Positions 27,694 through 46,884 of a stretch of DNA of 48,591 nt are shown here, piece by piece. Source of the DNA: Candidatus Sodaliphilus limicaballi (GTDB taxonomy: Bacteria > Bacteroidota > Bacteroidia > Bacteroidales > Muribaculaceae); NCBI GenBank assembly GCA_018065815.1, contig JAGHSP010000069.1, positions 1 through 48,591 of the forward strand. The letters are read 5' to 3'. The position numbers and the translations under genes are program-made. The first letter of the stretch is position 1. Every line of letters starts with the position of its first letter. The notes below the pieces were generated by a model. That model searched no databases and had not been told where the DNA came from. It was given only the letters and a program-made list of their open reading frames with translations.

Positions 27694-27780
27694 GGAGAGG
27701 TGGGTGAGTGGCTGAAACCAGCAGTTTGCTAAACTGCCGTAGGGGTAACCCTACCGCAAGTTCGAATCTTGTCCTCTCCG
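27694..27780 (+). tRNA. tRNA-Ser(GCT)
   Basis: GGAGAGG...CCTCTCCG acceptor stem, anticodon stem GCAGT-TTGCTAA-ACTGC (GCT), long variable arm, TTCGAAT T-loop; no encoded CCA. Confidence 0.93.
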
Positions 27781-27786
27781 CTATTT

Positions 27787-27861: not shown

Positions 27862-27869
27862 TAAATTTG
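27862..27869 (+). promoter_or_regulatory. Bacteroidota -7 element (TAAATTTG) for the integrase
   Basis: TAnnTTTG match upstream of integrase ATG at 27915. Confidence 0.5.
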
Positions 27870-27914
27870 ATTGTTGAACCATTTGCATTCTTCATCCCAA
27901 AGAATGTAAAAAAA

Positions 27915-29072
27915 ATGTGTGCAGCACGAAAAAAATTAAACTCGCTCAGCGAGGTACTGAAATTCACTTATCCCAAACTTCACACCGGCTCAAAGTGGTT
28001 CGTTGACTTCTATGCCTACGACCCCGCAACAGGAAGCATGCGCCGCAAGAAGTTCCACCTTGACAACATCGCGAAAGTAACGGAGCGCCGCAGACGAGCC
28101 AACGAGATGATTGAGTCGCTTATCTCACTTTTAAGGTCGGGATGGTCCCCATGGATCAATGCCGAAACCAACAGAAGCTACACTTTATTGTCGGATGCCA
28201 TCGAAAGATATGAGGCATACATCGAAAGAATGCCGAAATACAAGACTCGCAAATGCTACACCTCCCGACTGAATATCTTCAAGAAGTACAACTCCAGCAG
28301 GCTTTTACCTATCCGTTACGTGTATCAGTTTGATACGGCATTCGTCAGCGACTTCCTCGATTATATATTTTTGGATCGAGAGACAAATGCCCGCACGAGA
28401 AACAACTACCGACAATGGTGCTCGTCGCTCGCTGCATTCTTTATAGAGAAGCAATACCTGACTACGAACCCTGTTGACAAAATCAAGCCCATTGCCGAGA
28501 CAGGTAAAAAGCGTAAACCTCTCACAGTACAAATGCTTAAAACACTGGAAAAGCATTTGCGTGATTCACACCCATACTTTTATCTTGCATGCATGATGGA
28601 ATACTACACTTGCATACGACCTGAGGAACTGACACATGTGAAGCTGTCTGACATCAATATCAAGGAGCAGTCCGTATTCATCAGCGGCGAGGTCTCCAAG
28701 AACAAGCATGATGGCAAGGTGGGTCTCAACGACAAACTCGTGCTGTTCATGATCGAGCTTGACATCTTCAAATACCCGAATGACTATTACCTCTTTGGAC
28801 CAAGAGTTTCCCACCCCTCTGAAACACGCAGCGACAGCGAGATGTTCCGCCGTCGCTGGAATACGCTTGTGCGCAAAGGTCTCAAGTGGGATGACTGCTA
28901 TCAGTTCTACAGTCTCAAGGACAGCGGTCTGCGTGACCTTGCCAATTCGGAAGGCATAGTCATTGCCAGGGACCAGGCACGCCACAACGATGTGGCGACA
29001 ACCAACAAGTATCTGCAGGGGCGTGACGCTCCCGTCCACGACGAGACAAAGCATTTCAAGGGAAACCTCTAA
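27915..29072 (+). CDS. int: Tyrosine recombinase/phage integrase
   Basis: SAM-like N-terminal region; YYTCIRPEELTHVKLSDI, YSLKDSGLRDLANSEG, RDQARHNDVATTNKYLQ; directly downstream of tRNA-Ser; ORF start at 27867 is a TTG inside a promoter box, ATG at 27915 preferred. Confidence 0.9.
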   Translation: MCAARKKLNSLSEVLKFTYPKLHTGSKWFVDFYAYDPATGSMRRKKFHLDNIAKVTERRRRANEMIESLISLLRSGWSPWINAETNRSYTLLSDAIERYEAYIERMPKYKTRKCYTSRLNIFKKYNSSRLLPIRYVYQFDTAFVSDFLDYIFLDRETNARTRNNYRQWCSSLAAFFIEKQYLTTNPVDKIKPIAETGKKRKPLTVQMLKTLEKHLRDSHPYFYLACMMEYYTCIRPEELTHVKLSDINIKEQSVFISGEVSKNKHDGKVGLNDKLVLFMIELDIFKYPNDYYLFGPRVSHPSETRSDSEMFRRRWNTLVRKGLKWDDCYQFYSLKDSGLRDLANSEGIVIARDQARHNDVATTNKYLQGRDAPVHDETKHFKGNL

Positions 29073-31099
29073 CCCAACCTATAGAAGTAACCCGTGACTA
29101 ATGGTGACACTCCTGCCGCCGTGATGCTGTACTCGAGTTTCTCACATGCGAATCGCTGGTTGTTTATTATAAACGCTCCTGACGCTCTCAGAACATCCCG
29201 CGAGATAAACTTGATACAGTATTTGACAGTTGTGTCTATCACCTGACCGTCATCAAGGCATTGGTTTGCTATGGTCTGGGCATTGGATAAGTCGGCAAGA
29301 GAAATATAACCAGGCTGCAATACATCTTCAATGCCTGCGCCAATATCATTGACGAGATAGCGGGTGTATGGGTATATGCGGGGATATGGCCCGAAAATCG
29401 TCTCGTTACCTCTTTTCGCGACAACCGAATATAGTCCGTCAGGCACCATTGCCACAAACATTTTGTCGATAGTGGTGCCTTTTTCTACTGTTGCCTCTCC
29501 CTCGATGAGCGCCTGCAGGTCGGTACTGTCAGATGTTACTCCTCCTATGAGGTCTGCACCGACGTTCTCACGGTCTTCTACAATGATCACATCTACAGAA
29601 CCTTCGCCCACGACTGTGTCAAACCATTTGCCATCGCGTTTTGTTGTCTCGACAAAAAGCACCTTCTGCTCGGCAAGCTGGGCTGGCACAATCTTCAGCT
29701 CAATGTCTATGTCCGAAGTTTCCTCCTTGCGTTTTAACGGGCGCAGCTGGTTCACCTCTTTGAACACATATTCAGAAGAATCCTCAATATAATAGAGGAT
29801 GAACTGATGGCCATCAACAACAAATATCTTGTTCTTGTCGCTTGGGTTGGCTCCGCGGACAATGTACTGGTGCATCTGCTCCAGTGTCGTGAACGTGGTC
29901 TTGTCAATAGTAGCGACTTCCATGATTTCATCACTGATATGAGCCATGCCGTCGCCCATGTCAGCCCACCCTACATTGCCGTTGCTGATGTCTGTAGTCT
30001 CATCTTTGTCAACCTCGACGGTATATTCATCAACAACCTCGTTGATGACCGTAGGCGATGAATCTTCCCACCATTGCTTACGAGACAGGATACGGCTTGT
30101 CTTGGTTACCTCATCCACCTCAATGACGATGCCCATGAAATGCTCTATCTGAGTAAGGAACTCGTTGAGTGTCCAGTGCGGCAACGCCTTGGCTATCTCA
30201 CGACGATTGTTTGCACAGGCTATGAATATGCGGGGAAATATGTCATTGCTGTAGTATAGGAAACGCAAAGAGTCAATGTCATCATCCATGGGGTAGCCCG
30301 CTGCGCTTAAGATTTTTCGCAATGTCCTGCACAGCATGGGCTGGAATGAGGGACACACCTGCGGGAAATCGCCGCCAGGTGTTGCCTGGTTGGGCCACGT
30401 GAGTCTATACTCGGGAAAGTAACTGTTGCCGTGTTTACGCATCACCACCTCATTGCAAAGCAGGCCGCTCTCGCAGTATGAGTTCCACTCGCTGTTTGAG
30501 TTTATAACGGGGAAAGCCACTCCTCTGTTCTCGTGCGCGTCATATCCCTGTGATTTGTCAAACGACCACCAGCGCGCTTTCCACCATTCATAAGCCCGTT
30601 GGGCCTCTGCCTCGTCCTGGCTCTCAGGTGCGTTGCTGTAGCGCAGCTGTGTCGTGTCCATCCAATCAATAAATGCGCGAAACATCGCAGTGCCCTTCTC
30701 GGTCGGGAAAACCCAGTTTGCCATCTCGCTCTGCCAGTCGCCTAGGTCCAGCTCGTCAATATACAACTCTCCGCCTTTGGCATAGAAGTTCATCTCACTG
30801 TTGCCGCCCAGCAGTTGCACCTTTACGGCGGTATCGGTAACCTGGTTTATGATTGCCTTCCCATCAAGCAGCGTGATGTTGTCCACTCGCAGGACAGCAT
30901 GGTATTCCTGGAACTGTGTCTCTACATCCTTGCGGTTGATGCTCCCGAATATGACACGGTTTTCTGCACACTGCAGCGGCAGTTCCACATCGTATGTATA
31001 ACTGCCTGTCTTGTTGAAATACACGTTTTCGCGCGTGAGTTTGATGCTCACATTGTCGCGAAGCACTGCGGGTTTATCGTCAAGGAAAAGTTCTATCAT
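29069..31099 (-). CDS. Putative phage tail/baseplate structural protein
   Basis: 676 aa, part of the leftward phage operon; N-terminus MIELFLDDKPAVLRDNVSIKLTRENVYFNKTGSYTYDVELPL looks like Bacteroidota phage tail proteins; family not verified. Confidence 0.5.
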   Translation of the reverse strand: MIELFLDDKPAVLRDNVSIKLTRENVYFNKTGSYTYDVELPLQCAENRVIFGSINRKDVETQFQEYHAVLRVDNITLLDGKAIINQVTDTAVKVQLLGGNSEMNFYAKGGELYIDELDLGDWQSEMANWVFPTEKGTAMFRAFIDWMDTTQLRYSNAPESQDEAEAQRAYEWWKARWWSFDKSQGYDAHENRGVAFPVINSNSEWNSYCESGLLCNEVVMRKHGNSYFPEYRLTWPNQATPGGDFPQVCPSFQPMLCRTLRKILSAAGYPMDDDIDSLRFLYYSNDIFPRIFIACANNRREIAKALPHWTLNEFLTQIEHFMGIVIEVDEVTKTSRILSRKQWWEDSSPTVINEVVDEYTVEVDKDETTDISNGNVGWADMGDGMAHISDEIMEVATIDKTTFTTLEQMHQYIVRGANPSDKNKIFVVDGHQFILYYIEDSSEYVFKEVNQLRPLKRKEETSDIDIELKIVPAQLAEQKVLFVETTKRDGKWFDTVVGEGSVDVIIVEDRENVGADLIGGVTSDSTDLQALIEGEATVEKGTTIDKMFVAMVPDGLYSVVAKRGNETIFGPYPRIYPYTRYLVNDIGAGIEDVLQPGYISLADLSNAQTIANQCLDDGQVIDTTVKYCIKFISRDVLRASGAFIINNQRFACEKLEYSITAAGVSPLVTGYFYRLG

Positions 31100-31542: not shown

Positions 31543-32156
31543 TTCCCAAACACCTGATTGATTGCATCAAAATGCAGTTTGACAATCGCTTCTTTGCCAG
31601 TTGGCGAGGTAAGGAAATCAACATCGTCGCGATTGTCCTGGAACAGGTTCTCTGTAAGGACTGCGGGACAAGCGGTTTCGCGTAGCACATAGAAATTTGC
31701 CTGCCAATAATGTTCGCCGGGAATAGAGCGGTTTCCGTGCAGGTTCCTGCTAACCGCAAGCTCACAAAAAGTCTTCGCAAGATTCTTGCTGGTTGCCGAA
31801 CACGAGCGTGCCACATATACTGCGAAACCTCGGGCGTCAAGCCATTTGCCTCCGCTACCGGCTGCATTGACATGGATGCTCACATACACACAGTTCTGCG
31901 TGCCGTGTTTTGCACAGATGCCATTGACAAACCTGCAGCGCTTTGCAAGCTCGTTTACCTGCGGTGTCGGAACAACATCCTCCGGCATATCAACGAAAAC
32001 TGTATAACCCGCAGCCTCGAGTCTCGGTTTCAGGATGCCGATAACCTCACGACTGAACTGGTACTCACGAAACTTCTTATCGGGCGAGCATTTGCCAGGT
32101 ACATTGCTGCCATGGGCAGTGCCAAGGATAATGATGCGTTTAGTTGTGCTGTTCAT
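31539..32156 (-). CDS. N-acetylmuramoyl-L-alanine amidase (endolysin)
   Basis: IIILGTAHGSNVPGKCSPD, VYVSIHVNAAGSGGKW, PAVLTENLFQDN (Amidase_3-like zinc ligands). Confidence 0.88.
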   Translation of the reverse strand: MNSTTKRIIILGTAHGSNVPGKCSPDKKFREYQFSREVIGILKPRLEAAGYTVFVDMPEDVVPTPQVNELAKRCRFVNGICAKHGTQNCVYVSIHVNAAGSGGKWLDARGFAVYVARSCSATSKNLAKTFCELAVSRNLHGNRSIPGEHYWQANFYVLRETACPAVLTENLFQDNRDDVDFLTSPTGKEAIVKLHFDAINQVFGK

Positions 32157-32631
32157 TTTTGTCTCCTTTCTTTTTTAATTGTGATAAATCAATGTCAAAG
32201 TGGCGCGAGGTCTTGTCGACCATGATTTGCTGCAGTATTATCGCCCACTTTGCTCCATTGCAGCTGCTGATGTTCTCGAGGCTGCTCCATGCCTGCCAGC
32301 CTATAACCATACCGGCTGCCACCTTGAGGGCGTTGAATGGGAGCCAGTCGGTGACATAGACCTCGAGGAAGAACGAGAAGATGAGCAGCATGTAAACCTG
32401 GATCATCGTAACAATGACATCACCGAAGCGGCTGCTCTTGAACTTGCCAGCGTTTTTTGTTGCCTTCTCTGGGTAGGTTTTCGCTACACGCTTGCCAAGC
32501 TGCCAGGCCGTGAAGCAGTCAAACAGTACGGCAGCGGTACACAGTGCTATGTACGGCAGCGTGGGAGACAGTGCCGTGATGATGGCACTGAAGCATGTGA
32601 ATAACATACGACTTGTTAAATCAGTGTTCAT
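32140..32631 (-). CDS. Phage holin family protein
   Basis: 163 aa, several TM segments (YIALCTAAVLFDCFTAWQLGKR), adjacent to the amidase. Confidence 0.8.
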   Translation of the reverse strand: MNTDLTSRMLFTCFSAIITALSPTLPYIALCTAAVLFDCFTAWQLGKRVAKTYPEKATKNAGKFKSSRFGDVIVTMIQVYMLLIFSFFLEVYVTDWLPFNALKVAAGMVIGWQAWSSLENISSCNGAKWAIILQQIMVDKTSRHFDIDLSQLKKKGDKNEQHN

Positions 32632-32638
32632 GATAGCT

Positions 32639-33115
32639 TTATTTTAGGGATTGTATGAATGCGTCTGCTTCGGCCTTTGCCTTACGGTTGGCATCGATGG
32701 CTTCGGTAATGTGTTGCGTCATCTGGGCGATGAACGCATGCACCTCAGTGATGTCGGCAAAGGTGTGCAGCACTGGGGCTTCATCGGTGCCGAGCTTGAT
32801 GGTAGGCATGAAGCCATTGTTCTCGGCGTTCATTGCCCACATGGTGTAGTTAACCTGGTTTTCTGCGCTTAGCCAGACGAGCCTGCCGTGCCACCTCATG
32901 CCTTGGGTGATTTGCTCCTTGGTGTCGGCATCAATCTGCGCGAAAATCACTTGCCTTACCTCTTCGGGCGAAGGGCGGTGCTCAAAGGTATGGCAGTAGG
33001 ACCAACCATACTCTGTGTCTTCGACTTCGGTGTAGCCGTAGTAAACGATCCAACGGCTGCGACCAATCTGCTTCAAGCTGTCGTTGCGGATGACAGTTCC
33101 AATTATCTTTTCCAT
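32639..33115 (-). CDS. Phage protein with DUF4376-like C-terminal segment (possible tail-fibre accessory)
   Basis: GRLVWLSAENQVNYTMWAM...IKLGTDEAPVLHTFADITEVHAFIAQMTQHI; ATG at 33115 (MEKIIGTV) follows a promoter box; ORF track start 33190 is too long. Confidence 0.6.
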   Translation of the reverse strand: MEKIIGTVIRNDSLKQIGRSRWIVYYGYTEVEDTEYGWSYCHTFEHRPSPEEVRQVIFAQIDADTKEQITQGMRWHGRLVWLSAENQVNYTMWAMNAENNGFMPTIKLGTDEAPVLHTFADITEVHAFIAQMTQHITEAIDANRKAKAEADAFIQSLK

Positions 33116-33134
33116 AAAAATCAAGTTTATACAG

Positions 33135-33142
33135 CAAAGATA
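33135..33142 (-). promoter_or_regulatory. Bacteroidota -7 element (TATCTTTG)
   Basis: TAnnTTTG 19 nt upstream of ATG 33115. Confidence 0.6.
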
Positions 33143-33170
33143 ATATGCCTTACCGGGCGGTAAAAAGACA

Positions 33171-33198
33171 GCCGCCCAGTGACTGAACACCGGGCGGC
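33171..33198 (-). terminator. Rho-independent terminator of the DGR reverse transcriptase
   Basis: Minus strand GCCGCCCGGTG-TTCAGT-CACTGGGCGGC stem (one G-U) followed by TGTCTTTTT; 21 nt after RT stop. Confidence 0.85.
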
Positions 33199-33218
33199 CG
33201 TTGATGCTATCGCAATGG

Positions 33219-34532
33219 TCAGGTAAATCGGTACTTGACCTTGTTGCCGTCGAACACTTCGCTCACTATAGTGGTGAGAATGGGGAATATCTTTTCCCCG
33301 GTCTCATCCTCCTTGAGCGCAATCTGGTCGAGGATGTTCTGCATTTCCTCGCTCGTGGTGAAAAACTTGCCCCATTCGTTTGTCTGCGGGTCGCGGATGC
33401 TGACCACATAACGGTCGGCACCGTAAGAGGTGTTAAGACCTGTTTCAAAGTCATGCACCTCGATTTCCTTGTTAACGATGGCACCCAGTCGCATCACTTT
33501 GCCCGGAAAACGCTTCTTGCCGTCGGCAGGAGTGAAGCTGATGCCTAATTCACTGAATTTCTTCATGTCTTGGTTAGTTATTGATTTATAAAGATGATTG
33601 CAGTCGGCATGAACGGCCATGCCCTTGAAAGACCCCATGAGCTGCACGCGACGCTTGCGGCTCTTGACCTTTGCCATGCGGCGGGCGAACTTCTGCTTGA
33701 TGCGTTTGCGCAGCAGGGCGTGAGTGCCGTAGTTGACATACCCGAGGAAGTCAAGCCCTTCAGAGAGCGGGCGCACCGCCTCATTCCCCTTGACGGTGAG
33801 GTTGAGCGCAGCAACCTGCTCGTGCAGCACTTCGCGCCAGTACCACAGCTTTTCTTTGTCTGGAGCCAGCATCACGATGTCATCGCAGTAGCGATAGTAG
33901 TAGCGAACATGCAAGACCTCTTTCATAAAGTGGTCGATGCCGCTGAGCATCAGATTACCGAAGCACTGCGATGAGCGAAGCCCGATGGCGAGTCCATGGG
34001 GCATGAGCCTTACGAAATTTTCAAGGATAGGCAGGAGCACGGGGTCTTTGATGTGGCGACGGATCTGCGACATCATGATGTCCTGGTCGATGGACTCATA
34101 GAACTTGTTGATGTCGCATTTGTAGAAATAGCGTGTCCCGTCGGGATCGAGGCGTATGTCTCGGCTGATGGTGTTGAACAGCATGTGCATCCCTCGCCCG
34201 GGGATTGATGCTGCGCTTGTGGGAATGACGGTGCGGTAGATGATTTCGTCCACTACATTCATGATGGCATGGCAGCCGATGCGCTCGAAGATGGGCGGTG
34301 CCTGCACCTTGCGCTCCTTTGGTCCGTCGGTGACCAGGATGTCATTATAGCTGGTGATACGAAAGGAACCCTCGGCGATTTGTTCACCCAGAGTGCGCAC
34401 CACCTCGTCTTTCTTGGCCTTGAACGCCTCGCGGCGGTGTTTGTTCTTGAGATTGCCAACAACATCATCGAAACTGCTGAGCAGGTTGCCCGGCTCGATG
34501 ATGCGTGCAATCAGGTTGCCGTATCTTTTCAT
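33219..34532 (-). CDS. Diversity-generating retroelement reverse transcriptase with C-terminal extension
   Basis: 437 aa; KCDINKFYESI, HGLAIGLRSSQCFGNL (DGR-type xGxxxSQ motif), YYYRYCDDIVML, LDFLGYVNYGTHALLRKRIKQKF; adjacent to TR and VR. Confidence 0.94.
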   Translation of the reverse strand: MKRYGNLIARIIEPGNLLSSFDDVVGNLKNKHRREAFKAKKDEVVRTLGEQIAEGSFRITSYNDILVTDGPKERKVQAPPIFERIGCHAIMNVVDEIIYRTVIPTSAASIPGRGMHMLFNTISRDIRLDPDGTRYFYKCDINKFYESIDQDIMMSQIRRHIKDPVLLPILENFVRLMPHGLAIGLRSSQCFGNLMLSGIDHFMKEVLHVRYYYRYCDDIVMLAPDKEKLWYWREVLHEQVAALNLTVKGNEAVRPLSEGLDFLGYVNYGTHALLRKRIKQKFARRMAKVKSRKRRVQLMGSFKGMAVHADCNHLYKSITNQDMKKFSELGISFTPADGKKRFPGKVMRLGAIVNKEIEVHDFETGLNTSYGADRYVVSIRDPQTNEWGKFFTTSEEMQNILDQIALKEDETGEKIFPILTTIVSEVFDGNKVKYRFT

Positions 34533-34742
34533 CAGCCTTCAGGACATGTGGCCCGATGACGTTCACCCCCTCGATGGGGATTACCAGCCACCGCATGGCC
34601 ACGGTTCTTTTGTTCCGGCTTTCTCGCTATGGAGGTTTGCCGAGGTTCAGTCCCCTCGCCCATGGCTGTGGCGACACCGTCGCCGTGCCAGAGGAACGAT
34701 TGTCACGCCTATGCCTCTGCACAGGGGTGTAGTCTTGAAAAT
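34533..34742 (-). ncRNA. DGR spacer RNA region between TR and RT
   Basis: No credible ORF; perfect hairpin GGCGAC-ACC-GTCGCC (34670-34684); position matches the TR-RT spacer required for cDNA priming in BPP-1. Confidence 0.5.
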
Positions 34743-34853
34743 TAACCGCGAGCCGATGTTGTTGTTCGCGTTCGAGGAGTCGTTTGTCGCATTGACGTTC
34801 ACGAACCCGTTGTTCGCATTGTTGTTGTTGCCGGAACGCGCCACAACACGGCC
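34743..34853 (-). repeat. DGR template repeat (TR), 111 bp
   Basis: Aligns without gaps to 35018-35128; 13 mismatches, all at TR adenines of the minus (coding-sense) strand; sense reading ...GNNNNANNGFVNVNATNDSSNANNNIGSRL rich in AAC/AAT codons. Confidence 0.96.
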
Positions 34854-34882
34854 AACTTGGGGACTTCCACCTTTTTCGGGTG

Positions 34883-34890
34883 CAAAGTTA
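34883..34890 (-). promoter_or_regulatory. Bacteroidota -7 element (TAACTTTG) for TR-RT transcript
   Basis: TAnnTTTG on minus strand, 29 nt upstream of the TR boundary and downstream of the fibre terminator. Confidence 0.6.
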
Positions 34891-34898
34891 CTAAAAAT

Positions 34899-34925
34899 AA
34901 AAAAAATCCGACCCGCAAAGCGGGT
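34899..34925 (-). terminator. Rho-independent terminator of the fibre/variable-protein gene
   Basis: ACCCGC-TTT-GCGGGT hairpin then CGGA and T8 on the minus strand. Confidence 0.75.
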
Positions 34926-34937
34926 AAAAAAGAGTGG

Positions 34938-34951
34938 GAGCAGTCCTGCTC
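34938..34951. repeat. Perfect inverted repeat GAGCAG-TC-CTGCTC downstream of VR
   Basis: 6-bp arms, 2-nt loop between VR gene stop and terminator. Confidence 0.7.
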
Positions 34952-34984
34952 GGCCTCTCCACTGACGATTAGCGGAGGCGAACG

Positions 34985-37900
34985 CTACTCAACGAACTCG
35001 ACCGCGCCTCTGAAGGCTAACCGCGAGCCGATGTAGAAGAACGCGTACGAGGAGTCGTAAGTCGCATTGACGACCACGAACCCGTTGTTCGCATTGTAGC
35101 TGTAGCCGGAACGCGCCACAACACGGCCGGTGGAGGCGGTGTCTTCCTGCTGGTCGCAGAAGAATGTGTCATAGTTGGAATTTGAAACAAGGCGGCTCGG
35201 CACAACATCGCAGTAGCGTCCCCAGCGCACGCGGCAAATCTCGGTGCTGCCGCTCACGCCCTGCACGGCGCGCTCGCGGCCGTCGGGCATCTGGATGTGC
35301 CACACATGGTCAGCAACGCTGCCAGTCGGCACAGTGCATTTGTTGCGGAAGTAGGCGGCAAAGCTGGTTACATTCACGGCTACGCTGTCCATCCACTCGC
35401 GGCCGTTCGCCCACCAGTCCTCAAGGCACAGGGTGCGCGGACGCTGACCCGACACGCTCTCTCGCTTGGGACTGCGGAAGGTCTCGCCGCCGCTCGAGAG
35501 CGTATTGGTGCCGCCGGTGACAGTGCCATAATTTACACCGACACCATTCACTGCCTGGCAGTTGCGACGGCCATAGAATGCCATCCACAGCACATCAATG
35601 TCCTTGTGCATCTCGTAGTCAACAAGCTGGTAACCTGCACCGCGGCACTTGGCAAGGTTGCTGAAGTCCTTGAAAGTGCGGTTCATCGACAGCGTGCTCT
35701 GCGGCAGACCCACGACAAGATTACCCTGCTCATCATACTTCCAATACGGAGAAGTAGTTGTGGCATTGTTCACACCGTAGAGCGGTGACTGGCCACTTAC
35801 CGAGCGCAGGCGCCACAGCGCGTCCTTGGTAGCCTTGTACATGCCCACGAGAGCAAACTCATGCTCTACCCAGTCGGGCTCGATGGCTTCCACTGCATCG
35901 CTGTCAACGGCTATGCACTCCTGGGACTCAAGACCGCGCACGGCGGTGAACACGAAGTCAACCGCTCCGTCGGGAACGGCAACGAAAACATATTCGCCGC
36001 TGATGAAGTCGTTCTGGGCGTGCGACACGAGCGGAGCGACTGTGCTCATCACCTTGCCCTTCGCGTCGAGGAAGGCACAGCCCACCGTGCTGCTGTTGAT
36101 GCTCGGCCAGCGCACCTGCTTCATGCCCTCCACATTCATGCGGTACACATTGTTGGTGCTCGATGTGTCAAGGGATGATGCGTTGAAAGCACTGCCTTCG
36201 GGGAAATTTTCCACGAGTAGGCTCGCGAACTCGGCAATCATCAGGTCGGCAAGCGGGTGGCGCTCGATGCGGCTGTAGCTTGGCAGCGGACAGTGGTCCT
36301 CGCTCGACAGGCACAGGTACTTCTTATTGTGCAGGTGGTCGTTGATGCCCTTGTACCAGTACCGGGGCATGCCCACGAAGATGTCGTGCCCAACGCCGCT
36401 TGAGTCTTCAAGGTCGCTGGTGGTACGGCCGTCGGCGAGCACGTTGATGTCCTCGTCGCTTATCTGGCGCAGCTTCATCTTGCCGCCGGCAAACTCGCCC
36501 TTGTAGGCGTGTATGCTGTCGATGATGCGGGTGATGTGACCGCTGGGAACATAGCCCACCTTGCCGTCGCCGTCGTAGGTGCCGTTGTCCAGGTTGGTGA
36601 TGTTGGCATCATAGCTCAGTGTCTCGTCAAACTCGATGACGGTGCACTGCGCATTGTGGATTGAAAGGTGCTCATAGTAGGCTTGCAGCTGGGCAAGGCG
36701 GTCGGGATCCATATACGAGGTGAGGCGGTAAGTGCCGAATAGTTCGGGCTTGCCGTTGCGGTTCTCGGCTCCCTTCACTCCTTTGTTCATCATGTCGATG
36801 AGCGCCTGGCCGTCGCCCGTGAGGTTGATGTCGGTGATGCGCACATACTGCAGCTGGTTCCCTGCCGTGGCGAGGATGTCGCCCAGCAGGCGCACTGCGT
36901 CAAGCCTCGGGCAGCTCACGATGTTCACCGTCTGGATCTGAGCATACCCGTCGAGCGTGATACCCTCGTAGGTGAGGTTGGGCAGGCGGTCAAACTGCAG
37001 CTGCACCAGCGTCTCGGGCAAGTGCATTCTGCGTATCACGCTTGCCGTCGGCAGGTTGACCGCAGTGATGCGGGAACCCTGGGCCTCGATGCGCTCAAGC
37101 GAGCGGCAACCGCTCACGTCGAGCGAACTCTGCAGCGTGGGACAGTTGACCACGTTGATGTACTTCAGCAGCGGGTGGTTGCCCAGCGTGAGTGTGGCGA
37201 GTTTGCCCGTGTAGCCTGGTGTGGCATTGCCCACGGTAAGCGACTCGAGGAGGCGGCAACCGCCCACCACGAGCGTTGTGGGATAGAGCACGCTCAGGTC
37301 GCCCAGGTCGGCGATGCGGTCGGCTTGGTAGATATAGGTCTCGGTGTCGTTCGGTCGGCTGCCTGCAGGGGCGGTGAAGGTGTACTGCTGCCCCTTGCGC
37401 ACAAGGCGGCTCGAGTAGCCGGCATTGCCCGAGAAGCGGAAGCCGAAGTACCAGTCCTGCGCGGCGGTGACTGTCACTTCTACCTTGCTGGGGACGCTGC
37501 TCGCACCCTCGGTGTTGGCTCGCAGGTACACCGCGCTGTCACGGTAGGAGCCTGTGCAGCGCTTGGCGTTGATATAGGCGAAACGCTCGCTCAGCACCCA
37601 CTTGCGGTGGTGGGCACGAGAACCCTGGGCGATGTCGAGGTAGTTCTGCGCCTGGCCGTCGCCCTGGCCGGCTACGCCGAAGCTGTCGATGTACTTGTAG
37701 CGTGAGTCCTCGTTGTAGATGGTCTCGCACCACTGGTCGCTCTGTCGCTCGTTGAACCAGTAGAGAGCACGGGCATAGATGAAATTGCCCTGTGCGGTAA
37801 GCCGCTCGTAGTTTGTGGTCTTGTCGGCATCCATGGTCTGCTCCACGAGGTTCCACAGCGCGCTGCTCTCTCCGTTGAACACCTGCTTGCCCAGAGCATC

Positions 37901-40900
37901 GGTGTCGTGCAGCTCGGCGTAGGGCGTGAACTGGATGCGGCCCTCGTTGTTGAGCGTGAGGATGGTGTCGTTGTCATAGAAGATGGGATAGCACAGACCG
38001 TCGTAGAACGCCCACATCATGTTCTTTGCGCCCTGGTCAACGGCAAGCAGGCCCTCGCGCAGGTTGTCGTAGGCAAGCAGCATGTCCTTGTGGAAGTAGT
38101 TGCCCGCCTCGGTTACGAACCTTGCCTTGCGCTCTGCCACTTGCTGCTCGGTGAGCGTGGTGTCGGTGATGTCGAGCGACACGAGCCAGTCAACGATGCG
38201 CTTGAGCTGCGCAGGCACCTTGCCGCGGCCATAGGCGGCGTTGAGGTCGTCGCAGTCGGGATAGCGTGGCTCGAAGGCGCCGCCCCAGTAGGGGGCATGG
38301 CGCGTGCCCTCGCTGTCCACGGGGAGTGAGTCGCCGTCAAACCAGTCGGCAATGTCGTCGCCGGTGACCTGCGAGGTGAAGTCGCTCGAGTGGAACAGGC
38401 ACATCGGGTGGCCGTTGTTGGTGAACTCCCAGCACTCGGCGTTGTTCTCGATCAGTTTGCCTGACTTGGCTTCGGCAAGCCCCTGGGCAAGGGCGATGGT
38501 TGCACCGGCACGGTTGCGCCAGTTCTTCGCCTCGGCATCCCATTGCCACAGTTCGCCCATGTCCTGCCATGCGCCCTGCTCGGCGTTGTACTTCGCGAGG
38601 TGGTTGAGGTGGGTGCTGTCGGCAGCCGCCGCTATGAGATACATCAGCTCACCGCCTTCGGCCGCTTCGAGGGCATCGGCATCGCCCTGCAGCTGCGACA
38701 GCGTGCCTTGCCACAGCAGGTAGTCGCTGCGGTTGACCATGGCGTCGTTGTAGCCGGCGATCTTCTCAAAGCCGAAGGTGTCGGCAGTCGACTTGTCGTT
38801 GTTGAAGTTGTACTTGCCTATGAAGGTGCGGGGGCTGCTCTCGGTCTCCTGGTGGAACATGAGCACGGGGAAACCGAAGATGGTGGTGCGCACCGTGGGG
38901 TCGATGTGCTGTGGCGGAGTGAGGATGCCGGTAGATGACAGCACCTCGCCTATGAAGTTGGCGGCACCGGTGTTGTGCGTGCCGCTGGACTCGGCAAAGT
39001 CGGCCTTGAGGCAGAAGGTCTTCACGGCTTTCTGGGGCACGAGGTTGCCATGGCCGTCAACGCCGCGCAGGGCATATTTCTTGGCCGTCGAGCCGCTGTG
39101 CGTCAGCGTGATGTCCTCCAGGAACTTGAACTTCCAGTTCTTGCGGGGGTAATACTGCGACGAGGTGCCTTGCACGTCGTTCTGCACCTTGTTGCACGAG
39201 AATGAGCATTCGGGGTGCTGGCGGTCTTCATAGATGACCTTGGTGTCCTTCTTCTTGTCGCCCTTGAACTTGGGAAGCGTCCCCACGAAGGTGATGCACG
39301 GTATCTGCTGCACCGCTTTCTCGTAGTCCACGGCATCGGCGTTGTCGTCGTTCATGATGTCGTTGCGCTCCAGCTTGGCAAACATCACCGTGGTGTCGTC
39401 CATGTCGGCGATGTAGTTGTTCACCATCTGGCGCATGCCCAGCGAGGTGTTATAAACCCTCACGTTCCAGATGTCGAGGTCACACAGGCGGTTGCCCATG
39501 CTGATGGCCACCGGCTCGTTCTGCACGAAGTAGTCGCTCGTGTCATACTGCTGAATGCCGCTCAGCACGCCGTCGAGGTACAGCAGCATGAAGCGCTGCT
39601 CGTCCACGCGCTGGATCACGAAGCCCACCCTCACGCGTTCGCCTTGCTTGAACTTGCTGCTCACGCGCTGGCGCAGCGCACTCTGCAGGAAGCATTCCTG
39701 GGCGGTGATTTCAAAGCCCACCGTGCCGTTCATGCACCCTATGAGCACTGCATCGGCATCGTGGCAGTTGGTGGCGGTGAACTCTACCTCGATGGTCTTG
39801 CCCTCGAGCTTGCAGTCCTCGGCAAAGATGTTGAGCGGGATGCGGCACTGCGCTCCCCCGGCGAGGTGGAGCGACACGAGGCCCTTGCCGTCGGCTAGCC
39901 AGCCGCTCTGCGTGTCAAAGGGGCAGTCGGTGAACTCGGCCGCCGTGGTGTTGCCGTTGGCATCGGTAAACGACCACTCGCCCTTGTTCGAGGCGGCGTT
40001 ACTGCGACCGCTTGCGGTGAGATAGAGCGCAAGCGCTGCCGTCTCGGCGGTAATCTGGTGAGAAGCGGGTACCACTTCCACCTCTATGTCACGGGTAACC
40101 TCACCGCACTTGATCGTGAGCGTCGAGGTGCCTGCCTCGCGGCTGCGGTGGCTCACGGTGTGGCGGTTGCGGTCCACGTCCATCGAGGTGAGGACTACGC
40201 CGTCAAGCAGCACTTCGATGTGCGATGTGATGCTTGCAGGGTCGTAGATGGCAAACGGCACGCTCAGCGTGTCATACTGGGTGACCTTCACCTTGTCACA
40301 CTCGGTGGCGATGATGATGTCGCCTGTGCCCTGGCGGGTTATCATCAGGTCAAAGTAGAGGCGGTTGCTCGTGAGCATCACGCCGTCGGCAATCTCGCGC
40401 TCGGCCCACACTTCGAGGGCATGCGCTCCATGGGCGAGACCGGCAGTGGGGATGTCCTTGATGCTGGTGGCTCCGCTCGAGGTCACTGTCATGGTCGACA
40501 GCGGCTCGCCGTCGAGGGTGAAGTTCACGACTTTGGCTCCGCTGCCGTTGACCGTGAAGCGGAAGGGTATCACTGTGCCGCTCTCGGTGAGGGTGGCGAG
40601 CGAGTAACTGCTGGCGATGCCCAGTGTCACCACTGTTATCTTGATGTAGGCGCTCTGTGCCACCACGCCGTCGTCGGCTGTGATGCGCACGCGCACGCTG
40701 TTGGTGCCCACGGTGAGCCAGGGCGACACGTCAAACGAGCCTATGCCCTGCACCACGTCCTTGCTCTCCACGCTGCTGCCGTTCACGATGAGCTCGGCAC
40801 GGCCGCCCAGCTGGTCATCGACGCCTGTGGTGATGTTGTAGTGGTGCCAGGTGAAGTCCACGGTGCGGGTGTCGCCTTCCTTGAGGGTGGCGATGAGCCC

Positions 40901-42652
40901 GTTGTCGATGGTCAGCTCTATGGCTGAGGGGGTAATGTCGCTGCCTCCGCCGCCCGTGGGGATGGTGACGCTGTTCATCACGTTGCCGTCAGCGTCCAGC
41001 AGGGAGAGCTGGTTGGTCGAGGCATCAAACTGGAACCCGGCGGCAAGGCCGCTCTGCATCTGCTCGAGGGCTGCGCTCACGGCTGCATTGCCCACGGGGT
41101 TGCTGCTTTCCTTGTTGAGCACATCATCCACGGTGACGCTGTAGGAAAGGCGCACGAGGCCGTCACGACCGGGCGTTACAGGGTCGCCGTCGTTGAACTG
41201 CACGCCGCGCACTGTCGATCGCCAGGCGGTCTCGTCGGCCCAGTCCTCGAGGCGCATGCCGCAGAACTGCCATGTCTGCCATTCGCCCGCACCGCTCATG
41301 AAGGTGATGAAGCGGCCGCTGGCGCGCAGTTCCTCGGGCACTGCCGCTGCCGCTGTGCCGCGGTTGTAGTAGCCCTCGGCCTTGGGGACGAGTTCGTTCA
41401 CGTTGACCACATTGCCCGTGGTGCTCCCGCTTGCGCCGAAGGGCTGCCACGATGCCTTGTCGGTCCACGAGCCGCCCTGCCATTGCCAGTTCTCGATGCC
41501 GCCGTCGGTGAGCAGCGTGATGACCACCCCGGTGACGCGCGCGGCACTGTGCTGGTCGCCGTCGGTCAGGGCGAGGAAGGTGTCGAGCGTCAGCGCATGG
41601 CCTTGTCTGCCCGCAAGCATGTTGCCGTTGAAGAAGAGGCGAGGCTTCAAGCCGTCCTCGGTGGCGGCGGTGCGGGCGGTCAGCCCGGCGATCTGCGCGC
41701 TGAAGTCCTTGCCCATGGGAGCAAGCTCGGCACGCTCTTCCTGGTAGTAGTAGAGGGTGTCGGTGCTCGTGCACACATACGCCTTGAGGCTCAGCGGAGT
41801 GTAGTCCTCTCCGCTGTAGAGCGAGCGGTCGGCCCAGTCGAGGTAGTAGTTGTAGAGGGTGTTGAAGTCGGCAAGGTCTTTCACCGCCAGCAGCTGGGCG
41901 TCGGTGAGGCGCGTTGCCACTGCGGGATTGGCGGCGGGTGCCTTGGGGATGGCGGGCGTGAGTTCGGCCATCAGCGACGATACCGCCACGGCGGTGCGCA
42001 CGCCCAGCACAAACTGGCGAAGGCTCTCCACATAGAACACCTGCGCGTTGTCGTCGGTGCTCTTGCTCTCACTCTTGCCGCTCTTCACGGTCACAGCGCC
42101 CAGCACGGCACTGAACTCAAGCACATTGGCGAGGTTGTCGGGGATAAACTCCCCGGGCACCTTGCCGTTCCCGTCGAGAGGAGCAATGCCGCCCGCCTTG
42201 CCTATGCCGTCCAGCACATCGGTAATGCCCTGAAGGGCTTGCGACGCTGCACTGGCGGCGGTGTCTGCCGCCTCTTCGGCTCTCGTGGCGGCGGCGCTCA
42301 CCGTGGCAAACTGTTCCATGGCAGCAGCCACTGCCTGCACAGCGCTATTGACCTCGGCAAGCTGGGCGGGGGTGAGCAAGCCCGCATTGGCACTCGATGC
42401 AGCGGGGATGGTGATGCTCTTGCTCACAGTGTTCCCCTCGTCATCTACTGTGCGGTAACGCACCACATAGTTGCTCTCGCTCGTGCTGGTCGTGATTGTC
42501 GAGGCATCAACAATCTCCATCGGTAACACGGCAAGGCAACTCTGGATGAAGTCGACAAACATCTTGCCGACTCGAGCCGCGGTGTTCTCGTGCTCCTCGG
42601 TGGCATCGCGGATCACTGCGGCTTGTTGCAATAAGTTGCTTAGTTTACTCAT
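34985..42652 (-). CDS. Giant phage tail-fibre/adhesin, DGR variable protein (2555 aa)
   Basis: Single ORF; VR occupies codons 2509-2545; C-type-lectin/FGE-like C-terminus ending GSRLAFRGAVEFVE; N-terminus phage-fibre-like. Confidence 0.9.
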   Translation of the reverse strand: MSKLSNLLQQAAVIRDATEEHENTAARVGKMFVDFIQSCLAVLPMEIVDASTITTSTSESNYVVRYRTVDDEGNTVSKSITIPAASSANAGLLTPAQLAEVNSAVQAVAAAMEQFATVSAAATRAEEAADTAASAASQALQGITDVLDGIGKAGGIAPLDGNGKVPGEFIPDNLANVLEFSAVLGAVTVKSGKSESKSTDDNAQVFYVESLRQFVLGVRTAVAVSSLMAELTPAIPKAPAANPAVATRLTDAQLLAVKDLADFNTLYNYYLDWADRSLYSGEDYTPLSLKAYVCTSTDTLYYYQEERAELAPMGKDFSAQIAGLTARTAATEDGLKPRLFFNGNMLAGRQGHALTLDTFLALTDGDQHSAARVTGVVITLLTDGGIENWQWQGGSWTDKASWQPFGASGSTTGNVVNVNELVPKAEGYYNRGTAAAAVPEELRASGRFITFMSGAGEWQTWQFCGMRLEDWADETAWRSTVRGVQFNDGDPVTPGRDGLVRLSYSVTVDDVLNKESSNPVGNAAVSAALEQMQSGLAAGFQFDASTNQLSLLDADGNVMNSVTIPTGGGGSDITPSAIELTIDNGLIATLKEGDTRTVDFTWHHYNITTGVDDQLGGRAELIVNGSSVESKDVVQGIGSFDVSPWLTVGTNSVRVRITADDGVVAQSAYIKITVVTLGIASSYSLATLTESGTVIPFRFTVNGSGAKVVNFTLDGEPLSTMTVTSSGATSIKDIPTAGLAHGAHALEVWAEREIADGVMLTSNRLYFDLMITRQGTGDIIIATECDKVKVTQYDTLSVPFAIYDPASITSHIEVLLDGVVLTSMDVDRNRHTVSHRSREAGTSTLTIKCGEVTRDIEVEVVPASHQITAETAALALYLTASGRSNAASNKGEWSFTDANGNTTAAEFTDCPFDTQSGWLADGKGLVSLHLAGGAQCRIPLNIFAEDCKLEGKTIEVEFTATNCHDADAVLIGCMNGTVGFEITAQECFLQSALRQRVSSKFKQGERVRVGFVIQRVDEQRFMLLYLDGVLSGIQQYDTSDYFVQNEPVAISMGNRLCDLDIWNVRVYNTSLGMRQMVNNYIADMDDTTVMFAKLERNDIMNDDNADAVDYEKAVQQIPCITFVGTLPKFKGDKKKDTKVIYEDRQHPECSFSCNKVQNDVQGTSSQYYPRKNWKFKFLEDITLTHSGSTAKKYALRGVDGHGNLVPQKAVKTFCLKADFAESSGTHNTGAANFIGEVLSSTGILTPPQHIDPTVRTTIFGFPVLMFHQETESSPRTFIGKYNFNNDKSTADTFGFEKIAGYNDAMVNRSDYLLWQGTLSQLQGDADALEAAEGGELMYLIAAAADSTHLNHLAKYNAEQGAWQDMGELWQWDAEAKNWRNRAGATIALAQGLAEAKSGKLIENNAECWEFTNNGHPMCLFHSSDFTSQVTGDDIADWFDGDSLPVDSEGTRHAPYWGGAFEPRYPDCDDLNAAYGRGKVPAQLKRIVDWLVSLDITDTTLTEQQVAERKARFVTEAGNYFHKDMLLAYDNLREGLLAVDQGAKNMMWAFYDGLCYPIFYDNDTILTLNNEGRIQFTPYAELHDTDALGKQVFNGESSALWNLVEQTMDADKTTNYERLTAQGNFIYARALYWFNERQSDQWCETIYNEDSRYKYIDSFGVAGQGDGQAQNYLDIAQGSRAHHRKWVLSERFAYINAKRCTGSYRDSAVYLRANTEGASSVPSKVEVTVTAAQDWYFGFRFSGNAGYSSRLVRKGQQYTFTAPAGSRPNDTETYIYQADRIADLGDLSVLYPTTLVVGGCRLLESLTVGNATPGYTGKLATLTLGNHPLLKYINVVNCPTLQSSLDVSGCRSLERIEAQGSRITAVNLPTASVIRRMHLPETLVQLQFDRLPNLTYEGITLDGYAQIQTVNIVSCPRLDAVRLLGDILATAGNQLQYVRITDINLTGDGQALIDMMNKGVKGAENRNGKPELFGTYRLTSYMDPDRLAQLQAYYEHLSIHNAQCTVIEFDETLSYDANITNLDNGTYDGDGKVGYVPSGHITRIIDSIHAYKGEFAGGKMKLRQISDEDINVLADGRTTSDLEDSSGVGHDIFVGMPRYWYKGINDHLHNKKYLCLSSEDHCPLPSYSRIERHPLADLMIAEFASLLVENFPEGSAFNASSLDTSSTNNVYRMNVEGMKQVRWPSINSSTVGCAFLDAKGKVMSTVAPLVSHAQNDFISGEYVFVAVPDGAVDFVFTAVRGLESQECIAVDSDAVEAIEPDWVEHEFALVGMYKATKDALWRLRSVSGQSPLYGVNNATTTSPYWKYDEQGNLVVGLPQSTLSMNRTFKDFSNLAKCRGAGYQLVDYEMHKDIDVLWMAFYGRRNCQAVNGVGVNYGTVTGGTNTLSSGGETFRSPKRESVSGQRPRTLCLEDWWANGREWMDSVAVNVTSFAAYFRNKCTVPTGSVADHVWHIQMPDGRERAVQGVSGSTEICRVRWGRYCDVVPSRLVSNSNYDTFFCDQQEDTASTGRVVARSGYSYNANNGFVVVNATYDSSYAFFYIGSRLAFRGAVEFVE
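35018..35128 (-). repeat. DGR variable repeat (VR), 111 bp, in frame, codons 2509-2545 of the fibre
   Basis: 98/111 identity to TR; mismatches are coding-strand A>T (11) and A>G (2) only. Confidence 0.96.
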
Positions 42653-42684
42653 TGTTTTATGATTTTAGTTAATTAAACGCATTG

Positions 42685-42692
42685 CAAATTTA
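42685..42692 (-). promoter_or_regulatory. Bacteroidota -7 element (TAAATTTG) for the fibre gene
   Basis: TAnnTTTG 32 nt upstream of ATG 42652, in a low-GC intergenic gap. Confidence 0.55.
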
Positions 42693-42729
42693 ACGACTGC
42701 GCTCTGCTCAAAAAAAGACAACACCGCCC

Positions 42730-43230
42730 TCAGCGGGGCAGTGCTTTGTTCGCGTTCTCCAGTGCTTCGCATATCACTGCGGCGGCTTCCTCGCCCACCA
42801 TGTGCGCCATCGTCTCTTTCATGCGCATCAGCGACGCAAACAGTTTAGGATTGAACCAGTCGCGCTTCTCCCTCGGCTCGCCGCTGGTGTAGTGCCCGCC
42901 CCAGGCAGGGCCCACCTTGCGAGGACGGTCCAGGCGGTGCTCCTTGCGGTAGGCCGCGCCCAGGAACGGCAGGTCGCCGCCGTTATTCCTGTGGTAGCCG
43001 TTGCCCACGCCGTAGGCCTGGTAGATGCCGTAGCTCAGGAACCGCAGCACGATGCTCGCGCTCAGCCCGTCATGGCTCACGCTCTCGCTGAACGACTGCA
43101 TCAGCGCACCCGTCCGCCTGATGTTCCACATCTGCAGCTTGTCCTGCCATATCTGGGTCATCAGTTTCGCCCAGTTGTCTATCCACAGCTGTTGCTGGCG
43201 CTCTATCTCTTCTTTCCTCAGCTCTGCCAT
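42730..43230 (-). CDS. Putative HK97 gp10-like/virion morphogenesis protein
   Basis: 166 aa; WNIRRTGALMQSFSESVSHDG...RFLSYGIYQAYGVGNGYHRNNGG pattern; gene position. Confidence 0.5.
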   Translation of the reverse strand: MAELRKEEIERQQQLWIDNWAKLMTQIWQDKLQMWNIRRTGALMQSFSESVSHDGLSASIVLRFLSYGIYQAYGVGNGYHRNNGGDLPFLGAAYRKEHRLDRPRKVGPAWGGHYTSGEPREKRDWFNPKLFASLMRMKETMAHMVGEEAAAVICEALENANKALPR

Positions 43231-43721
43231 TCGCTTGCGTCATATGTTAGGTCAACTGGCTCGCTCACCTCCACCATGAAGTACAGCCCGGTGCAGCCGT
43301 TCAGGAAATACTGGCCCAGCTCGCGGCTCAGCACGCTCTCGGTGCGCAGGTACACCAGGTCGTTGCTCAGCGCGTCCTCGTCCGTCAGCATCCGCGTCAG
43401 CAGCTGCTGCATCAACTGGCGGCACTTGCCCAGCGCCGTCTCATAGCTGCTCATGTCTTTCATCGAGTAGCGGTGCAGCAGGAACACCGTCACCGTCCGC
43501 TTCTTGAACCAACCGCCGTTGCGGCCCCTGAAGGTCGCCCCGTCATTGGTGTCGTCCACGCAGAAAAAAGCATTCGCCGTGCGGAACTGTTGCAGCGGGC
43601 CCTGCAGGGTCTCGATACCCGAGCAGGTGCACCACTTGAACTTCTCGGCCTGCGCCAGCTTGTTGCGCTCCCACAGCCCCTTGAAGTAGCCTATGTAGTC
43701 AAACAGTTGTTTTGCATTCAT
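43218..43721 (-). CDS. Phage structural protein, possible tail completion/terminator
   Basis: 167 aa; overlapping starts/stops with neighbours in the structural operon. Confidence 0.4.
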   Translation of the reverse strand: MNAKQLFDYIGYFKGLWERNKLAQAEKFKWCTCSGIETLQGPLQQFRTANAFFCVDDTNDGATFRGRNGGWFKKRTVTVFLLHRYSMKDMSSYETALGKCRQLMQQLLTRMLTDEDALSNDLVYLRTESVLSRELGQYFLNGCTGLYFMVEVSEPVDLTYDASEWQS

Positions 43722-44482
43722 TTCTTCTTCATTTTGCGGTTAAACTCCTCGGCCTCTCGCGCCTTGGCGTCGAGTTCGGTCAGCGCGCGCCATGTGTCGG
43801 TACCCAGGATCTCGCCCTCTTTGGTCACGTCGCCGCCCGTCAGCGCCCTTATCTGGTTGTTCATCATGTCGGCCATCTCCACAGTGCCGCCTCCGTCGCT
43901 GGGCTTGAACAGGTTCGGGAACTGATGGGCAAACATCGCCTTTACTTGCGTCCACCACTGTATCACGCCCAGTTGCTCCCACATCTCCACCTTGCCCTTC
44001 AGCCCGGGATAGAGCAGCCGCGCAAGGTGCTTCACTGCCTCTTCGCTCTGGCTCTGCAATACACCCTGGTAGCAGTTCTCACATTGCAGGTAAGTCCCGA
44101 ACTCCACCCCGTGCAACTCGGCTGGCAGGGCAGCCGCGCCATGCAGCCGGTCAGGGCGCACAGGGCGGCTGCCGGGCTCGTCCAGCCAGTTTAGGGTGTC
44201 AAGCATCCCGGGCACCAGCTCGGGGTTGAGCAGGAACTTCCGCCCTTTGCCGCCCTCCGTCGGCACGGTGCATTCCCATGCTTTCCCCGTGCGGTGCAGC
44301 GCTTTCAGCCCGGTCAAGTGCATCAGCAGGGCGAGGCGGCCGCGCCACGGCTCCTCGGCGCGCGCCTTGATTTTCAGCACCTCGGTCAGTTCCTCCTGGC
44401 TCAATTCAGCCCAGCCAGTGGGCAGCGTCAGGCTCAGCGTCTTGCCGTCACCCGAAAAAGTAGCACGGATCGTCCTTCTCAT
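43718..44482 (-). CDS. Phage structural/assembly protein of unknown function
   Basis: MRRTIRATFSGDGKTLSLTLPTGWAELSQEELTEVL; likely ATG 44482, longer ORF start 44560 overlaps upstream gene. Confidence 0.5.
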   Translation of the reverse strand: MRRTIRATFSGDGKTLSLTLPTGWAELSQEELTEVLKIKARAEEPWRGRLALLMHLTGLKALHRTGKAWECTVPTEGGKGRKFLLNPELVPGMLDTLNWLDEPGSRPVRPDRLHGAAALPAELHGVEFGTYLQCENCYQGVLQSQSEEAVKHLARLLYPGLKGKVEMWEQLGVIQWWTQVKAMFAHQFPNLFKPSDGGGTVEMADMMNNQIRALTGGDVTKEGEILGTDTWRALTELDAKAREAEEFNRKMKKK

Positions 44483-45254
44483 TCTTGTAGGGTTCAAAGG
44501 TGTTGGCGGCATACGCCGTCGAGTTTGCGTAGGTCCGGAATGTCTCGATGTTGCCGTCAAGCCACTCCACCAGTTTCTTCACGTGGTAGTGCGCCATCAC
44601 GCTGTCACCGCTCGCGTCAGCGCCTATCACCTGCAGCACCTTGTGGATGGCTGTGTTCTGCATCGCCGTCGCGCTTCCCGTGCGCAGTGCGTCACACAGT
44701 TCTTGGTAGAACTCTCCTGAGATGCAGTGCTGCACCTTCGCCTCGGCAGCCGCAATCTTGGGTCGCCACTCGTCCAGCATCGAGCGGTGGCCGTTCGCCA
44801 CGCCCAGGTACATCAGCTGCAGTCGCCCGTTCCACACCAGGCTGCGGAACACCTCCCTCGCCGTGTGGGTCTCCACCCACAGCTCATTGCCGCGAAGCAT
44901 CGACAGCAGCTCGTCCACCGTGTCGTCAAGCGACCACTGCACCTGCTGCCGCAGGCGGTTCACGCGCTCGGCACTCGCCGGCGCAACGTTCTGGTTGCTC
45001 ACCACCCCGAATCCGTTCTCGGTCAGCACAAGGTCCAGGTGCGCTATCGCCAGCTTATACGCCGTCAGGCACACCATCCGGTTGCACAGGTTCAGCAGCT
45101 GCAAGTCGTTCTCGCGCTCGCTATACAGGTCGCCGCCCAGCAGCGACTTCACCGACGCCTCGCCCTCGCTCAACTGCTCGGCTATCCGCTCAAACAGCGT
45201 GTCATCGGGCATCACAGCACTTGGCACATAGTATTCAAATTCTTGTCGCGTCAT
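44448..45254 (-). CDS. Phage head-tail connector-like protein (DUF6712-like)
   Basis: 268 aa; position directly downstream of the portal-like gene; alpha-helical. Confidence 0.45.
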   Translation of the reverse strand: MTRQEFEYYVPSAVMPDDTLFERIAEQLSEGEASVKSLLGGDLYSERENDLQLLNLCNRMVCLTAYKLAIAHLDLVLTENGFGVVSNQNVAPASAERVNRLRQQVQWSLDDTVDELLSMLRGNELWVETHTAREVFRSLVWNGRLQLMYLGVANGHRSMLDEWRPKIAAAEAKVQHCISGEFYQELCDALRTGSATAMQNTAIHKVLQVIGADASGDSVMAHYHVKKLVEWLDGNIETFRTYANSTAYAANTFEPYKNEKDDPCYFFG

Positions 45255-46639: not shown

Positions 46640-46884
46640 CGGTATATTGTCATATTATTGATTTCAAACAGTGTCACGTCGCGGAACTCGCGTATCAGCC
46701 CGCTCTCGGGCAACTTGATCCGGTGCGTCCCCTTGCGCCAGTGGCTGCCCACGCATTTCACGCCGCGGTACTCCAGTATGTCACCCGTGCTCAGCTTCCA
46801 CACGCGCAGGTCGCACGCATATCCCGCCTCAAGCAGCACAATGGCATCCTTGATGTGGATCACGCCTTTAGTTGTAGGTCTCAT
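46636..46884 (-). CDS. Small phage hypothetical protein
   Basis: MRPTTKGVIHIKDAIVLLEAG...; overlaps portal-like start and upstream stop. Confidence 0.5.
   Translation of the reverse strand: MRPTTKGVIHIKDAIVLLEAGYACDLRVWKLSTGDILEYRGVKCVGSHWRKGTHRIKLPESGLIREFRDVTLFEINNMTIYR

Follow-up and report, generated by a model that had tools for sequence, protein, structure and literature searches.

A hankyphage-type diversity-generating retroelement with an RT-3 RNA in its spacer in a tRNA-Ser-integrated Bacteroidales prophage

Does the phage-type DNA beside a tRNA-Ser gene of Candidatus Sodaliphilus limicaballi hold a complete diversity-generating retroelement (DGR), and how far does this element follow the paradigm of the Bordetella phage BPP-1? 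The window analysed here is the whole of contig JAGHSP010000069.1 (assembly GCA_018065815.1), 48,591 nt in length. On its minus strand, the target gene, with the repeat VR at its 3' end, is followed by the repeat TR, a 210-nt spacer, the reverse transcriptase (RT) gene, and a DUF4376-like gene. The features of this locus are as follows:

34985..42652, minus strand: target gene, 2555 aa, with an intact ORF and the VR at its 3' end
35018..35128, minus strand: VR, read in the frame of the target ORF and ending 30 nt short of its stop
35006..35017, minus strand: candidate target-site inverted repeat GCCTTCAGAGGC, found by eye directly after the VR
34900..34925, minus strand: hairpin ACCCGC-TTT-GCGGGT with a T-run, found by eye between the target gene and the TR
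34883..34890, minus strand: candidate -7 box TAACTTTG, found by eye 30 nt before the TR
34743..34853, minus strand: TR, with 31 adenines
34743..34759 (VR counterpart 35018-35034), minus strand: invariant 3' end of the TR (IMH*-like), from re-alignment
34549..34701, minus strand: RT-3 RNA (RF03068), an Rfam match in the spacer between TR and RT
33219..34532, minus strand: DGR RT, an ORF of 437 aa with the motifs IGLRSSQ and YCDD
33222..33569, minus strand: C-terminal domain of the RT (phrog_19665, residues 322-437), from a PHROG match and a structural model
32639..33106, minus strand: DUF4376-like protein, downstream of the RT

The repeat positions agree with an earlier note on this DNA, which had placed RT, TR, and VR adjacent and on the same strand. 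The hairpin between the target gene and the TR is possibly the terminator of the target gene. Bacteroidales -7 boxes have the consensus TAnnTTTG, which TAACTTTG fits, making it a possible promoter candidate for the TR-RNA.

Re-alignment on the minus strand paired TR and VR without gaps over 111 bp at an offset of 275. All 13 mismatches fall at coding-strand adenines of the TR (11 A>T and 2 A>G, out of 31 adenines), and not a single difference was found at a non-A position over the 111 bp. Every number in the pairwise alignment of the earlier note was thereby reproduced, and its claim of adenine-only substitution was borne out. The final 17 nt, which are A-poor, are identical in both repeats, and the mismatches end at TR 34760 and VR 35035. 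Among direct repeats of more than 38 nt, a search of 32000-44000 returned the TR/VR pair only (118 nt, 86%). The chance of all 13 mismatches falling at A is 6.9e-9 (hypergeometric). A chance or ordinary duplication of the end of the tail gene, without any DGR, would account for the mere existence of a repeat; however, A-only mismatches with a p of about 7e-9, repeated independently in 54 other loci beside a DGR RT, are not expected from it. The A-only pattern and the RT together thus already refute this reading, whose probability we put close to nil.

The RT itself was compared with solved structures and with other RTs. A profile of 29 clade RTs, used as the query in a PDB sequence search, gave the BPP-1 DGR RT as the best match (8ub7, E 7.6e-36), followed by group II intron RTs (E 1.9e-17). 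The predicted structure of the RT (pLDDT 84) likewise has its best fold match in 8ub7, with a TM of 0.87 on the target. In the tree, 12 clade RTs form one group (100/100) that is joined with BPP-1 and other DGR RTs, and four group II intron RTs stand apart from the DGR RTs. The motif-4 position of the RT reads IGLRSSQ and its active site YCDD. Sequence match, fold match, and tree all agree with the proposed placement of the RT within the DGR clade. With an A-only TR/VR pair, a DGR-clade RT, and an in-frame 3' VR, the locus is a complete DGR, as the earlier note had described it.

Three further genomes of the genus hold full-length relatives of the RT at 67-78% identity; hankyphages and BS-TP4-like phages do so at about 50%, and at least 80 IMG/VR contigs at 47-68% (alignment query). 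With the RT alone as the query, scans of viral and genome contigs gave no match. A single scan yielded 55 clade loci with TR/VR pairs, namely, the window and 54 others, some of which are near-duplicates; of their TR/VR mismatches, 623 are at TR A and 9 at other positions. Over 13,311 bp, the two phages of the near-identical pair L057/L058 differ at 13 positions, without exception in the VR at TR A, and over 9,119 bp those of the pair L083/L085 differ at 12 positions, 11 of them in the VR at TR A. The TRs are identical within each pair. In the two pairs together (22 kb), TR-adenine positions of the VR account for 24 of the 25 differences. DGRs of this RT clade show VR-only divergence between close relatives. 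None of the 21 differences between L040 and L043 lies in the VR (borrowed coordinates; the scan called no TR/VR pair).

No near-identical copy of the window element was found, and the current activity of its own DGR copy is inferred. The element could instead be a formerly active DGR that is now dead, its VR a record of past mutagenesis, with the prophage decayed or a factor lost. The window is a single snapshot of a prophage that runs off the contig end, and some clade pairs show little or no VR change, such as L036/L038 with one of eight differences in the VR. Nevertheless, both the RT ORF and the target ORF are intact and no catalytic motif is missing, the TR with its invariant 3' end is intact, as is RT-3, and non-A mismatches between TR and VR have not accumulated. 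We therefore regard a dead element as quite improbable.

A candidate regularity of the mutation spectrum, the lack of the A>C class, was dropped. No A>C occurred among 85 changes in the window and six relatives; in three DGRs used for comparison, it accounted for 12 of 42. In the 55 clade loci, A>C makes up 43 of the 623 TR-A mismatches (6.9%) and is thus merely rare, not missing. Rarity of A>C is general to DGRs in DiGReF (PMC3521204). Two side observations concern genomes with more than one DGR. A single genome, G015, carries two RT-3-type DGRs on different contigs (L026 on C9, L027 on C116), and in the DGR on C116, TR and VR differ at nine A positions and additionally by two C>T changes. 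Several DGR RTs with adjoining bAvd genes lie on contigs C23, C250, C472, and C646 of G048, which is possibly a multi-DGR host.

The earlier note had missed that the spacer between TR and RT is an RT-3 RNA, which occupies the slot of Phage_DGR in BPP-1. Positions 34549-34701 match Rfam RT-3 (RF03068) with 63 bits (gathering threshold 40.5) and an E of 9.8e-14 over model positions 1-148 of 148. When the spacers from the window and 36 relatives were folded, a recurrent element emerged that consists of CCUCGGCAAC, a hairpin, and GGAAAGCCGGAACA. RT-3 was matched in all 19 clade members scanned with Rfam and was absent, in the same kind of scan, from three DGRs with RTs of other groups (L007, L009, and L010). 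It starts 9-47 nt past the TR and stops near the RT start. A search with RT-3 alone through 394 genomes of the order returned four, including that of the window. In two of the other three, RT-3 is flanked by a TR, for which a VR is present, and by a clade-type RT; 12 of 12 TR/VR mismatches are at A in one (L154), and eight of nine in the other (L157). In the third, RT-3 is located near the contig start, and no TR/VR pair was seen. RT-n motifs were reportedly introduced by Weinberg et al. in 2017. The Rfam entry for RT-3 has no DGR label, and the literature we found covers the structure only; the original description may hold the link. In BPP-1, the slot between TR and RT holds the Rfam family Phage_DGR (RF03022), and this spacer reportedly recruits bRT-Avd and primes cDNA synthesis (PMC12875486). 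RT-3 would correspondingly recruit and prime the RT.

Avd is required in BPP-1 (PMC12875486). No match to bAvd (PF22296) was obtained on the window contig or in any of 18 clade phage records, and the control G048 has bAvd beside its DGR RTs. As the target stop is 131 nt from the TR, an Avd-sized gene cannot fit in the BPP-1 position. The BPP-1 paradigm invoked in the earlier note thus carries over only in part: the A-specific mutagenesis stands, whereas a full transfer does not, because no Avd is recognisable. The RT has a C-terminal extension of about 115 residues (phrog_19665) that is conserved throughout the clade. Its model is beta-rich, with three strands followed by a helix and two more strands. 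OB folds show this order, and the domain might, at a guess, be one. A sequence search found no solved relative of this domain. Avd is a helical bundle, and the idea that the domain is a fused Avd was rejected in view of the beta-rich model and the lack of a solved sequence relative. RT-3, the additional RT domain, and the lack of a recognisable Avd co-occur across the phage clade. The C-terminal domain may take over the role of Avd. With middling confidence, we propose that RT-3 is the reverse-transcription initiation element of a distinct, Avd-independent subtype of Bacteroidales phage DGRs, in which the fused beta-rich domain and RT-3 together replace Avd and the BPP-1 spacer.

The main alternative concerns the protein encoded downstream. 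The DGR would be the same, with the DUF4376 protein rather than the C-terminal domain of the RT playing the part of Avd. In 47 of 49 loci, a DUF4376 homologue is encoded after the RT, and Benler et al. described a small ORF near the RT whose size and isoelectric point resemble those of Avd (PMC6199706). However, a close homologue (G015:C9:65240) is located 16 kb away from the RT, immediately in front of an ORF overlapping a lysis-type gene, and a further homologue, in G013, is on a different contig from its RT. These DUF4376 homologues away from the RT argue for a phage-structural neighbour, and the phage records gave no bAvd match. An Avd role of the DUF4376 protein therefore appears rather doubtful to us.

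The target protein matches phrog_14959, an uncharacterised 2494-residue family, over residues 143-2554, and its C-terminus (residues 2265-2547) matches phrog_5302, 'tail protein'. By these matches, the target is a predicted phage tail-type protein. As to the C-type lectin (or Ig) fold expected of a DGR target domain, the VR domain was modelled poorly (pLDDT 49) and had no Pfam match; the hankyphage target has been described with a C-type lectin domain (PMC6199706). The codons after the VR are GCC TTC in 22 of 22 distinct loci, and GCC makes up 34% of the upstream Ala codons; since the 22 loci are mutually related, this conservation is suggestive only. In the window, GCC TTC opens the inverted repeat GCCTTCAGAGGC, a possible candidate for the counterpart of the BPP-1 stem-loop after the IMH.

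The element resides in a prophage, whose integration site is marked by three features:

27694-27781, plus strand: tRNA-Ser(GCT), from ARAGORN
27767..27781, plus strand: att core TCTTGTCCTCTCCGC, the last 15 nt of tRNA-Ser(GCT)
27867..29072, plus strand: tyrosine integrase (phrog_1 integrase, E 1.6e-24)

About 85 nt separate the 3' end of the tRNA from the start of the integrase ORF. In the relative G001:C141, TCTTGTCCTCTCCGC is bordered on the left by phage-type DNA and on the right by a homologous integrase, and the rest of the tRNA is missing. This is an attP arrangement, in which the phage ends are joined around the last 15 nt of the tRNA. The integrase beside the tRNA and the attP core in G001:C141 support the integration into tRNA-Ser. 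As the window is the whole contig, the far end of the prophage lies beyond it. A search of the same genome for a second att copy found just another tRNA-like gene (G000:C228:7454-7541; L109 1501-1588). This tRNA has a serine body, 97% identical to the tRNA-Ser of the window; its variable arm is long, and in it A-T compensatorily replaces G-C. Its anticodon is the Gly-type GCC, and ARAGORN calls it tRNA-Gly; the ORF after it resembles the start of another phage integrase. The GCC anticodon was present in none of the 29 other copies compared, from 29 relatives, and the gene may reflect an artefact of the assembly or the strain. Within the prophage, large ORFs at 29069-31099 and 42730-47884 (676, 462, 338, 280, and 268 aa among others) have no PHROG match, so that much of the phage structural module is undescribed.

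The closest characterised kin of the element is the Bacteroides hankyphage DGR, which diversifies its VR in culture (PMC12135933). Hankyphage p00 (BK010646) and the window have the order target-VR-TR-RT3-RT-DUF4376 in common, with RT-3 in the spacer and a large tail-type target. The two RTs are 50% identical over their full length and share the C-terminal domain. In contrast to the Mu-like, transposable hankyphage, the window prophage has a tyrosine integrase and sits at tRNA-Ser; its target is also larger, with 2555 aa compared to about 2246. The Bacteroides phage BS-TP4 (PQ571277), whose RT is about 50% identical to that of the window, likewise has the RT C-terminal domain, RT-3, A-only TR/VR mismatches, and a downstream DUF4376 gene, but carries two extra genes (annotated as RelE toxin and regulator) between target and TR. 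BPP-1 shares with the window the order target-VR-TR-spacer-RT, A-specific changes, and a structured spacer RNA, and its RT is the closest solved RT. However, an Avd gene separates target and TR in BPP-1, its RT is 328 aa long and lacks the C-terminal domain present in the 437-aa window RT, and its spacer RNA belongs to RF03022 Phage_DGR instead of RF03068 RT-3. By phrog_19665 and an RT-3 between TR and RT, the window element belongs to the hankyphage-type DGRs.

We conclude that the locus is, very probably, a functional hankyphage-type DGR in a tRNA-Ser-integrated Bacteroidales prophage that works by the following RT-3/tail-tip mechanism. A TR-RNA would be transcribed that spans the TR and the RT-3 spacer. 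The RT, with its own C-terminal domain and no recognisable Avd, would bind the RT-3 element, begin copying near the 3' end of the TR, and misincorporate opposite A. The mutated cDNA would then take the place of the VR in the 3' end of the gene for the 2555-aa tail protein, with the common A-poor 3' end and perhaps also the short inverted repeat that follows as anchors. This would yield a changing tail tip that presumably binds receptors and most likely serves host recognition.

This kind of DGR is already known from gut phages, and the value for follow-up lies in the RT-3 link. The window adds one more natural case of targeted tail-protein evolution in gut-type phages. It ties RT-3 to a specific job, with the prediction that the clade RTs load and begin copying at RT-3, and it offers RT-3 as a search marker for DGRs that lack Avd. 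Compared with the Avd-dependent BPP-1, these phages possibly possess a simpler mutagenesis system of RT and RNA.
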